Of a DNA stretch of 28,149 bases, positions 1 through 4,238 are shown one piece after another; position 1 is the first letter of the stretch, and each line of letters begins with the position of its first letter. The translations under genes were made by a program, and so were the position numbers. This DNA comes from a virus. The stretch lies in IMG/VR virus record IMGVR_UViG_3300020455_000073, positions 1 through 28,149 of that record, one strand, 5' to 3'. The notes beneath the pieces were generated by a model. It was not told the origin of the DNA and searched no databases. It worked only from the letters and a program-made list of their open reading frames with translations.

Positions 1-95
1 ACCAATTCGGTTCTATATTGAGCCGAAGGCGATATCTTATCGATAACACCTTTCGCCTCCTCACAAGTTAAAAGAGTAGCAATTAGGAATGGCAT
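1..95 (-). CDS. Small riboswitch-controlled protein, N-terminal 31 codons only
   Basis: The reading frame opens at ATG 95-93 and stays open to the left edge, giving 31 full codons that begin MPFLIATLLTCEEAKGVIDK. An in-frame TAA lies 30 nt upstream, so the start is well constrained, and a GGAG sits about 10 nt before the ATG. The hydrophobic start followed by a helical, charged stretch resembles tiny proteins of about 60 residues that I recall from marine Prochlorococcus, Synechococcus and their phages; that family match is from memory. No function can be read from the sequence. It lies directly behind a glutamine-type riboswitch, so its translation probably responds to nitrogen status. The C-terminus is outside the window. 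Confidence 0.7.
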   Translation of the reverse strand, partial: MPFLIATLLTCEEAKGVIDKISPSAQYRTEL

Positions 96-96
96 A

Positions 97-156
97 GGAT
101 GAACGCTCCGTTCCGAGTCGGCTTACTTGCGTCCCCTGTCGAAGGGGGATGAACGT
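97..156 (-). promoter_or_regulatory. Glutamine-II ('downstream-peptide') type riboswitch
   Basis: Read on the minus strand, CGTTC (155-151) can pair with GAACG (113-109) to close a junction (P1). Inside is a hairpin CCCCT / AGGGG (147-143 with 137-133), then the conserved-looking single strand GACGCAAGTAAG, then a short stem CCG / CGG (121-119 with 115-113) that shares G113 with P1. This order and these unpaired letters match what I remember of the glnA / downstream-peptide glutamine riboswitch family. The motif CGTTCATCC occurs twice (155-147 and 105-97). The second copy can form a rival hairpin with GAACG that encloses the GGAG ribosome site just before ATG 95. Family assignment is from memory of the consensus, not from a covariance search. 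Confidence 0.8.
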
Positions 157-174
157 TGTGTTAATACTAACACA
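157..174. repeat. Perfect 7-bp inverted repeat over the -10 region
   Basis: TGTGTTA (157-163) and TAACACA (168-174) are perfect inverted repeats separated by ATAC. They lie across the -10 element of the promoter that would drive the riboswitch gene. The position suits an operator for a dimeric repressor or activator, or simply a hairpin at the very start of the transcript. No binding protein can be named. Confidence 0.5.
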
Positions 175-192
175 TTTGAACTATTTAGTCAA
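164..192 (-). promoter_or_regulatory. Sigma-70-type promoter with embedded late motif
   Basis: On the minus strand TTGACT (192-187) is followed after 17 nt by TAGTAT (169-164). The first element matches the -35 consensus in 5 of 6 positions and the second matches the -10 in 4 of 6, with ideal spacing. CTAAATAG (188-181), the T4-type late motif seen elsewhere in this window, overlaps the -35. The promoter points at the riboswitch and the small gene beyond it. Confidence 0.55.
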
Positions 193-2510: not shown

Positions 2511-3329
2511 TTGATTATACTAACAGGATCAAAAGGATTTATAGGTCAGAACTTTCTTAAGTATCTGATGGAACATTCTGATGAAGAAATCGTTACGGTT
2601 GATGAGCATGACTGTTGGGATTGGATAGCATACTTTGAGGACTGGGATAAAGTATCTCTTATACTACACCAAGGAGCGATCTCAGCAACGACAGAAACAG
2701 ATATAGATAAACTCCATAGAACTAATGTTTGGTTTACTATAGAACTGTTTGAGAAGGCAATAGAACATCAAATAGATGTTAAATTTGCATCATCTGCATC
2801 AGTATATGGCAATACAAGAAAGAGTTTAATGGGAAGTACTCCTAATAAAATATCTCCATTAAACTACTACGCAATTACTAAGTTACAGATAGATTATTAC
2901 ATACAAGATAACCTAGATAAGTTTTCATCTATCCAGAGTTTCAGATACTTTAATGTGTATGGAGAAGGAGAAGATAAAAAAGGAGATCAAGCAAGTCCAG
3001 TTCATAAGTTTACCAAACAAGTGAAAGAAACAGGTAAACTAAAACTGTTTGAAGGTTCAGGTAAATATCTAAGAGATTTTATTTGGGTTGGGGATATAGT
3101 AGAAGTCGTTCTTAATAATGATAAACCATCTGGGATCTATGATCTTGGAACCAGTAACCCAGTTAGTTTTAAACTTGTTGCTGAATTAATAGCAGCAAAA
3201 TATAATGGAGAAATAGAATACATTCCATTCCCAGAACATCTAAAAGGAAAATATCAATATCTAACTATCGCAGAAAAGGTATGGGACTATCAATTTATAA
3301 ATGTAGCACAGTATCTTAATATGTGTTGA
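2511..3329 (+). CDS. hldD: ADP-L-glycero-D-manno-heptose 6-epimerase (HldD-like)
   Basis: This 272-residue short-chain dehydrogenase-type epimerase would convert ADP-D-glycero- to ADP-L-glycero-manno-heptose using bound NADP. The Rossmann motif TGSKGFIGQN is at residues 5-14, the catalytic SSASVYG and YYAITK blocks are central, and the C-terminal half carries FRYFNVYGEG, LFEGSGKYLRDFIWVGD and IEYIPFPEHLKGKYQ. I recall the last three as HldD signatures rather than general sugar-epimerase ones. It is somewhat shorter than bacterial HldD (about 310 residues). The start is TTG with no clear ribosome site. It converges with, and overlaps by 14 nt, the last gene of the opposing sugar operon, which holds the other pathway enzymes. 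A related NAD-sugar epimerase is the main alternative. Confidence 0.85.
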   Translation: MIILTGSKGFIGQNFLKYLMEHSDEEIVTVDEHDCWDWIAYFEDWDKVSLILHQGAISATTETDIDKLHRTNVWFTIELFEKAIEHQIDVKFASSASVYGNTRKSLMGSTPNKISPLNYYAITKLQIDYYIQDNLDKFSSIQSFRYFNVYGEGEDKKGDQASPVHKFTKQVKETGKLKLFEGSGKYLRDFIWVGDIVEVVLNNDKPSGIYDLGTSNPVSFKLVAELIAAKYNGEIEYIPFPEHLKGKYQYLTIAEKVWDYQFINVAQYLNMC

Positions 3330-3882
3330 ATATTAAATTAAAGGATACGGTTTTTCTAATATTATTTGATTTATGAACAGACACCCCATGTAACATATAA
3401 GATGGAAATAATAAAAGCTTACCTCTTTCAGCTCTTATAGATTTTCTATCTCCAGAGAAACCAAGATCTCTCCATTCTCTATGAACCTCTCTGTAACCTT
3501 CATTATAAAAGAAAAATTTACCATCATCTTCTTGTTCATCAGTTAAAAAAAGACATCCTGATAAATGAAAAGGAGTATGATCATGAACTTCCTGAAAACA
3601 TCCTTTCTTATAAGTATTTCTCCAAATTTCATGACAATATATACTAAGATTTGCCTTACGACAATCTAAATCCAATTCATTAAAAAATATACTTAATGAT
3701 GGTTTAAATAATGTAATAAAATCTTCACGTAAATCTAATCTTTCTACTTCAATAGTACATCCATCCACCCAAGAAAATTCTTGATTTTCTGTCAAATTTA
3801 AATTTTCTATATTACTTAATAGATCTTCTTTATTTGGAGGATCTATTAATGAAAAATAATTTTGTGTTATAACGTCAAGCAT
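3316..3882 (-). CDS. 2OG-Fe(II) oxygenase, TIGR02466-like
   Basis: A 188-residue protein from ATG 3882 (TGATG junction with the cupin gene; GGGGG lies just upstream). The core reads QEVHDHTPFHLSGCLFL, then FPSYMLHGVS, then RKTVSFNL. That gives H100 with H102 (or D101) as the proximal metal ligands, H165 as the distal ligand and R176 as the 2-oxoglutarate anchor. The HxH variant of the usual HxD, if real, would be a feature of this subfamily. It is the last gene of the sugar operon and its end overlaps the convergent epimerase gene. The substrate is not known; a sugar, a nucleotide-sugar or a virion protein is possible. Confidence 0.78.
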   Translation of the reverse strand: MLDVITQNYFSLIDPPNKEDLLSNIENLNLTENQEFSWVDGCTIEVERLDLREDFITLFKPSLSIFFNELDLDCRKANLSIYCHEIWRNTYKKGCFQEVHDHTPFHLSGCLFLTDEQEDDGKFFFYNEGYREVHREWRDLGFSGDRKSIRAERGKLLLFPSYMLHGVSVHKSNNIRKTVSFNLIFNTY

Positions 3883-4238
3883 CAATCCCCCCTGAATACT
3901 CTATGTGAATCTAAATCAAAATGTTGTGTAGAAAACTCAAATAATTCAGAATCTTCCATAGCATACATTTGATGTCTCATCTTTCTTTCAATATGAAACT
4001 TATCACCTGGTTCTAAAACTATACTATCAGATAATGCAATATCATTATCAAAACCATAAAAGAGATGTATCTTACCAGACTGTAAGAAAAATGTTTCATC
4101 CTTTAGAAGATGATAATGCCAAGAACATCTCTTACCTTTAACAAAGAATAAAAGCTTACCACAATATTCAGAAGTATTACATATCCACTTCTCATAACCC
4201 CAACCCTTGGGAACAAATTTTATATCATCATTATTCAT
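3882..4238 (-). CDS. Cupin-domain protein, sugar isomerase/epimerase-like
   Basis: A 118-residue single-domain cupin. Motif 1 is intact: H41, H43 and E48 in WHYHLLKDETFFLQSG. Motif 2 has PGDKFH with H82 and a further H89, so a metal site is likely. The opening PKGWGYEKWI and the YHLLKDE block resemble the C-terminal cupin of type II mannose-6-phosphate isomerases and related nucleotide-sugar cupins. It joins both neighbours by ATGA or TGATG overlaps inside the heptose operon, so a step in sugar conversion is likely, but the reaction cannot be told from sequence. Confidence 0.75.
   Translation of the reverse strand: MNNDDIKFVPKGWGYEKWICNTSEYCGKLLFFVKGKRCSWHYHLLKDETFFLQSGKIHLFYGFDNDIALSDSIVLEPGDKFHIERKMRHQMYAMEDSELFEFSTQHFDLDSHRVFRGD

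Follow-up and report, generated by a model that had tools for sequence, protein, structure and literature searches.

A viral contig that ends inside a probable nested two-site glutamine riboswitch of T4-like cyanophages, with a small gene housed in the RNA

The window, that is, the whole stretch of DNA analysed here (28,149 nt; IMG/VR record IMGVR_UViG_3300020455_000073), is a viral contig. Close to its first position, the minus strand carries a putative promoter, several strands of a glutamine riboswitch-like RNA and the beginning of a small ORF (Table 1). Transcription from the promoter is predicted to start a few nucleotides 5′ of C1, the first strand of the RNA. By chance, 0.9 such promoters are expected per 400 nt, so it is weak evidence alone; the same promoter is kept in four related loci (L337-L340). 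The neighbouring intergenic stretch at 218-290 is terminator-like and matches several other cyanophage genomes, in some records at two to three places. It is followed by two 2OG-Fe(II) oxygenase genes (PF13759; 286-870 and 3316-3885, minus strand), an epimerase gene (2511-3329, plus strand) and a weak cupin match (3882-4238, minus strand), all of which are ordinary cyanophage content.

Table 1. Features of the 5′ half of the element and its surroundings in the window
Feature	Position	Strand	Remarks
Sigma-70-type promoter	164-192	-	TTGACT 192-187, 17 nt, TAGTAT 169-164; TG before TAGTAT
C1, CGUUC, outer P1 5′ strand	151-155	-	Partner G2 past the contig end
P2 hairpin, UCCCC/GGGGA	132-149	-	149-145 with 136-132; Rfam alignment
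Base X of GACG[X]AA	129	-	Long-range pair beside the ligand, described in PMC6698751
AAGUA, loop-E 5′ strand	124-128	-	GUA 126-124; other strand [A/G]AA in 3′ half
P3a, AGCCGACU	116-123	-	Partner P3b in 3′ half, AGUUGACU in L337
G1, GGAACG	109-114	-	GAACG 113-109 pairs with C2 (inner P1′) or alternatively C1
GGAG, likely Shine-Dalgarno of the small ORF	106-109	-	In the G1/C2 hairpin loop
C2, CGUUC, 3′ strand of inner P1′ hairpin	101-105	-	Comparative pairing
P2′ 5′ strand, UCCUAUG	93-99	-	Start codon included; partner at ORF end, past the contig, seen in L337
Small ORF B (phrog_504 family), first 31 codons	3-95	-	Runs off the contig

Exactly two copies of CGTTCATCC were found on the minus strand of the window (155-147 and 105-97). 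Dinucleotide shuffles gave an expectation of 0.08, and none of 100 shuffles held two copies. Similarly, GGACGCAAGTA-N-GGAACG occurred once in the window (134-109, minus strand) and never in shuffles. The first-pass annotation had read this region as a single glutamine-II riboswitch directly before a short gene. Much of what it described could be confirmed: the closing stem (CGTTC 155-151 with GAACG 113-109), the internal hairpin, which is P2, and the conserved strand GACGCAAGTAAG are present. The two copies of CGTTCATCC do compete for one GAACG, and the alternative hairpin GAACG-GAG-CGTTC (113-101) has GGAG at its loop, with ATG (95-93) directly after it. We also agree on the kinship with glutamine riboswitches, in a phage.

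The class had to be changed. In an Rfam cmscan, the fragment scored 32.9 bits (E = 1.8e-5; gathering threshold 35) against glutamine-I (RF01739) and 24.5 bits (E = 4.6e-4; gathering threshold 33) against glutamine-II (RF01704), which places it nearer to glutamine-I. The pseudoknot-closing helix of RF01704 around GGAACG would contain three non-standard pairs, and we rejected a stand-alone glutamine-II riboswitch because of its low score. A scan of the whole window gave no Rfam match over threshold. Taken literally, this is the outcome that the annotation had named as a refutation of its reading. The low scores of the fragment reflect a missing 3′ half: the contig end falls inside a larger RNA, of which positions 97-156 cover the 5′ half alone. 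RF01739 aligns a related composite with a short inner loop (L014) over its whole length with 43.6 bits, above the gathering threshold, which single aptamers (L006, L010, L024) also exceed. Most of the ORF-bearing composites that we checked are below it.

The remainder of ORF B, the 3′ strand of P2′, P3b, G2 and a DUF4278 gene lie off the contig. In three loci (L337, L338 and L339), the match to the window includes the ORF, and the sequence then runs on with ...CLWDAKVD-stop, GGGACGCAAAAGTTGACTAAAGGAACGG, CTTTGGAG and the start of the DUF4278 gene. Many phage motifs with split halves were found by a pattern scan of viral contigs. The first half contains the GUA side of loop E without the GAA side, which comes later, past another copy of CGTTCATCC. 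Downstream of the first half, at a distance of either about 20 nt or about 150-200 nt, is the second half, GACGCAAACGACT[A/G]AAGGAACG, and P3a of the first half is complementary to P3b of the second (AGUCG with CGACU; AGCCGACN with N′GYCGACU). A relaxed parser yielded 237 distinct composites, which are selected loci, because the collection scans fixed parts of the motif. One of them has a different start, a three-module chain of an orphan 5′ half, a P2 ORF and a complete short inner loop with the 3′ half (L110).

Does the window need its missing half? In the reading of the earlier annotation, a stand-alone glutamine-I or -II riboswitch would lie directly upstream of the small gene, and the downstream half would be irrelevant. 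The window does match both models, with both scores under the gathering thresholds. When we scanned from the second half alone, 196 of the 208 sites had the first half upstream, and visible variants accounted for several of the other 12. Moreover, the 3′ half occupies a fixed place relative to the ORF stop and the P3 lengths match. We regard the stand-alone explanation as extremely improbable.

The complete element would have the order C1(CGUUC)-P2-GACGCAA-GUA-P3a-G1(GGAACG)-C2(CGUUC)-P2′-GACGCAA-P3b-(A/G)AA-G2(GGAACG). Pairing of C1 with G2 would form an ordinary glutamine-I aptamer with loop E, and pairing of G1 with C2 would form another glutamine core, circularly permuted, on the far end of a shared P3 helix. 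The loop of P2′ would contain a small protein gene, and some phages have a further one in P2. The feature in the window is very probably the 5′ half of such a nested two-site glutamine riboswitch of T4-like cyanophages, with its enclosed gene or genes. Thus, the first-pass annotation took half of a nested double aptamer for a single riboswitch. The short gene that it placed behind the riboswitch is there, inside the element in the inner P2′ loop, and it is a DUF4278 gene that follows the complete element.

Comparative evidence supports the nested pairing. Given no structure, RNAalifold folded 48 short composites into C1-G2, P2, G1-C2 and P2′ with no broken pairs and with eight pairs changed on both sides. 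When P3 was included in the pair count, 94.8% of the cells were paired and the covariation score was 0.282, compared with 0.085 after shuffling. The nested topology was also the minimum in single folds of L066 and L135, and RF01739 aligned L014 as C1-P2-GUA-P3...P3-GAA-G2 with 38 bases inserted in the P3 loop. The closing pair of P2 covaries among relatives (U-A, A-U, G-C and C-G) and pairs in all 178 short P2 hairpins.

In eight of the 237 loci, GGAACG/CGTTCA of G1/C2 is swapped to GCAACG/CGTTGA, and neither side ever changed alone. On the tree of the enclosed protein this amounted to seven changes, and all six independent pairs were concordant (P = 0.031). The swap aside, the P1 pairs are invariant. 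The long-range pair is intact at both cores in 234 of the 237 loci under nested pairing and in 209 under tandem pairing, with agreement of 5/5 independent pairs on the tree (P = 0.0625). P3 is mostly 5, 6 or 8 bp long, with both sides equal in 233/237 loci and in 9/9 independent pairs. In the 8-bp class, the distal pair is U-A, A-U, G-C or, once, U-G (118/118), and a C.A mismatch at position 3 (115/118) and an A.C mismatch at position 6 (112/118) are strongly conserved and unexplained. Window positions 121 and 118 are the P3a sides of these mismatches. A pooled shuffle of P3 was uninformative, as the classes share the loop-E end. The 6-bp class (L015, L043, L059, L062, L085, L086) always has short inner loops; its P3b ends in C and so leaves no ORF stop codon, as expected if the stop and P3b have bases in common.

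Glutamine riboswitches do occur in tandem, with 157 doublets counted (PMC9481103). In addition, L014 and L032 show C1-G1 pairing in their minimum-energy OFF folds. An ordinary tandem of two glutamine-I aptamers (C1-G1 and C2-G2), with the small gene between them and degenerate P3 elements, is nevertheless highly unlikely. Neither module has a complete P3 and loop E of its own, as GUA is confined to the first and GAA to the second. In all 26 informative loci, it is the nested long-range pair that is kept, and not the tandem one. The G1/C2 swap would disrupt the P1 helix of each tandem aptamer. We found no series of two complete aptamers that each possess a P1 and a P3, and we rejected the tandem on these three grounds.

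With the nested pairing upheld by this evidence, the inner core can be regarded as a circular permutation of the outer one. Among the features of RF01739, P1, P2 and the GGAACG/GACG core are present, as is the long-range pair. Loop E (GUA/GAA) and P3 are complete only across the two halves of a composite; the GUA/P3a side is present in the window, and L337-L339 show the other. The G1/C2 loop caps the inner core. This core has no loop E, so its binding of the ligand is less certain.

From the conservation of the cores, we infer that the composite would bind L-glutamine and switch. In crystal structures, the ligand-contacting positions are C1, G2, G22/G18, C58/C39, G59/G40 and the long-range pair (PMC6698751). 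It might be argued that the cores bind another ligand, or glutamine too weakly, and that the element is a protein- or ribosome-controlled leader. Ribosomes must affect the 3′ half, because the coding ORF overlaps it. We consider this explanation unlikely, because the contacting positions are conserved at both cores and, in marine picocyanobacteria, it is usually a DUF4278 gene that accompanies a glutamine riboswitch (PMC6316151).

The enclosed genes fit closely into the structure. Of the 148 long inner loops, 146 have an ATG at a distance of 9-16 nt, counted from the start of C2, and a stop codon at a constant place, formed by the last U of P3b and the first two bases of loop E. The AUG follows the 5′ strand of P2′, and the P2′ helix often includes it. 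The spacer starts with GAG in 80/148 ORF-bearing inner loops and in 0/46 ORF-less ones. Across the ORF ends, pairs 1-4 of P2′ form in 174-176 of 176 loci, pair 4 being well above shuffles (maximum 128), and pair 5 forms in 159/176 (shuffle maximum 112); on the tree, pairs 4 and 5 gave few independent pairs, too few for a test. The proteins of both ORFs are under purifying selection, with an approximate omega of about 0.28 for the inner ORF (B) and 0.18 for the P2 ORF (A). NG86 dN/dS values over all pairs of ORF B were noisy, with a median of 0.74, and close pairs gave about 0.28. The comparisons show that the pairing is nested, that both cores are conserved and that the ORFs are under selection as coding sequence.

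The inner ORF belongs to phrog_504 and the P2 ORF to phrog_6471, with other families in a few loci. The L124 homologue matched the phrog_504 profile (E = 2.7e-10), and the window ORF matches the first part of the family in P-SSM2 and L337. The first parse comprised 194 composites. Both loops contain an ORF in 40 of them, P2 alone in 13 and P2′ alone in 107, and 32 have no ORF in either loop; in two, no C1 was identified. By coverage, L123 and L124 rank with the closest GenBank relatives, and each of them carries both ORFs. AlphaFold gave a two-helix model of ORF B (pLDDT 77); two rows from GenBank records were left out of the input. In P-SSM2 (L122, AY939844; about 2690-2840), the inner ORF is unannotated and only the DUF4278 gene PSSM2_320 is annotated. 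An unrelated ORF, YYTYYSYEPFGRGYIGSR..., was inserted in the G1/C2 loop of L159 and L080, with remnants in L169 and L201; in L080, C2 lies about 550 nt downstream. This ORF looked GIY-YIG-like by eye and had no Pfam match. It is possibly a homing endonuclease that uses the riboswitch loop. In L141, an ORF MRQCSKCSEYKP... directly follows G2; it is zinc-ribbon-like (CSKC...CKEC) and HNH-like by eye. The base after G2 in this locus is A, which breaks the outer long-range pair.

In the complete loci, G2 is followed by a leader, behind which lies either a DUF4278 gene (PF14105) or a related gene of the MNTLN type. The L124 gene scored 30.1 bits against the DUF4278 profile (cut-off 25.3), and the MNTLN-type version 14.6 bits, below the cut-off. 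In L337, the DUF4278 gene encodes MAKVTYRG.... In 184 of 233 loci, the loop-E strand CU[A/G]AAG and the Shine-Dalgarno flank of the downstream gene are fully complementary. A loop-E A was opposite C in 0/68 cases and a loop-E G in 60/124 (P = 5e-15); on the tree, about eight independent pairs were concordant and none was discordant. In five of six short composites, the ligand-free pairing of loop E with the Shine-Dalgarno flank was the minimum, and the aptamer state was 1.4-5.1 kcal/mol higher. Without glutamine, this pairing would keep the DUF4278 gene off, and glutamine would lock the loop-E strand into the aptamer and turn the gene on. Both known glutamine classes show ON behaviour (PMC6316151). 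Taken together, the covariation, the off-state energies and the published behaviour make glutamine-ON the likeliest direction, and glutamine probably turns the DUF4278 gene on.

For the inner ORF, the proposed control is more speculative. A folded RNA would hold the GGAG and AUG of this ORF in hairpins and thus repress it, and ribosomes on the inner ORF would oppose folding of the aptamer, so that the two genes would respond oppositely. A thermodynamic model of ORF-bearing transcripts did not give the expected change at the Shine-Dalgarno sequence or AUG of the inner ORF, and the DUF4278 Shine-Dalgarno sequence was no freer in the folded state. The directions of switching are therefore putative, and the inner ORF may be controlled by aptamer folding.

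The first half was present in 392 of 50,697 GenBank phage records, all of them under the names Synechococcus phage, cyanophage, Prochlorococcus phage or marine virus. All 16 records examined contain it. Thirteen of them parse completely, including P-HM1, S-TIM5, Syn33, S-RIM2 and P-SSM7; P-SSM2 and AG-345-E02 have a variant 3′ half seen by eye, and S-H9-2, the sixteenth, did not parse completely. Among 84,980 bacterial and archaeal species genomes, the G1/C2 pattern occurred in eight contigs only, and a host origin was rejected on this count. Several of these eight matches seem to be phage contigs, and the others may be chance. Composite-like matches in bacterial or MAG records (L129, on a Nonlabens xiamenensis contig, L127, L130 and L131) are likely contamination or phage contigs.

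The outer aptamer shares with glutamine-I its CGUUC/GAACG P1, P2, the GUA/GAA loop E, P3 and the long-range pair; it differs in that the P3 loop holds a second, circularly permuted core and the P2 or P2′ loops house ORFs. Glutamine-II has the same ligand-binding core and, in marine picocyanobacteria, also lies ahead of short ORFs and of DUF4278 genes (PMC2864571, PMC6316151), but the composite lacks its pseudoknot-closing helix around GGAACG. Tandem glutamine riboswitches likewise have two cores per transcript, in series (PMC9481103), whereas those of the composite are nested and have P3 in common. Glutamine riboswitches have been reported in cyanophages and in the OM43 phage Melnitz (PMC9964418, PMC9602691, PMC9004378). 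The relevant passages of these reports concern phage-borne glnA-type RNAs, including an S-CREM1 glnA annotated at 44 bits, and describe them as simple glnA or as tied to tmRNA; nested structure and an enclosed gene are unmentioned in those passages. In the literature searched, we found no description of nested riboswitches, of ORFs in aptamers or of DUF4278 in phages, and an earlier description is possible elsewhere. Cyanophage glutamine riboswitches are known; in the literature covered, we found no account either of a nested pair on a shared helix or of an aptamer that contains genes. Group I introns have ORFs in peripheral loops and also place coding genes in loops of a structured RNA. The composite differs from them in being a predicted metabolite sensor, and the start and stop of its gene belong to its helices.

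Riboswitches normally are leaders in front of genes. Here the gene would be built into the sensor, so that its start codon, stop codon and final codons also serve as parts of the RNA structure, and a single shared helix would connect two ligand sites. Since the 5′ half is present in 392 GenBank phage records, the element is common and apparently overlooked. The widest interpretation, to which we give slightly less than an even chance, is that most T4-like cyanophages carry a natural two-site glutamine sensor, with a normal and a permuted aptamer on a shared helix and genes in the loops, which would couple the metabolite, the translation of the enclosed gene and, oppositely, the expression of the next gene. 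Such an element would be a natural system for studies of cooperativity and of the coupling of translation and folding. The N-terminus of IF17, a glutamine synthetase inactivating factor, is related to the DUF4278 domain. Via the DUF4278 protein, the element may link phage expression to the nitrogen state of the host.
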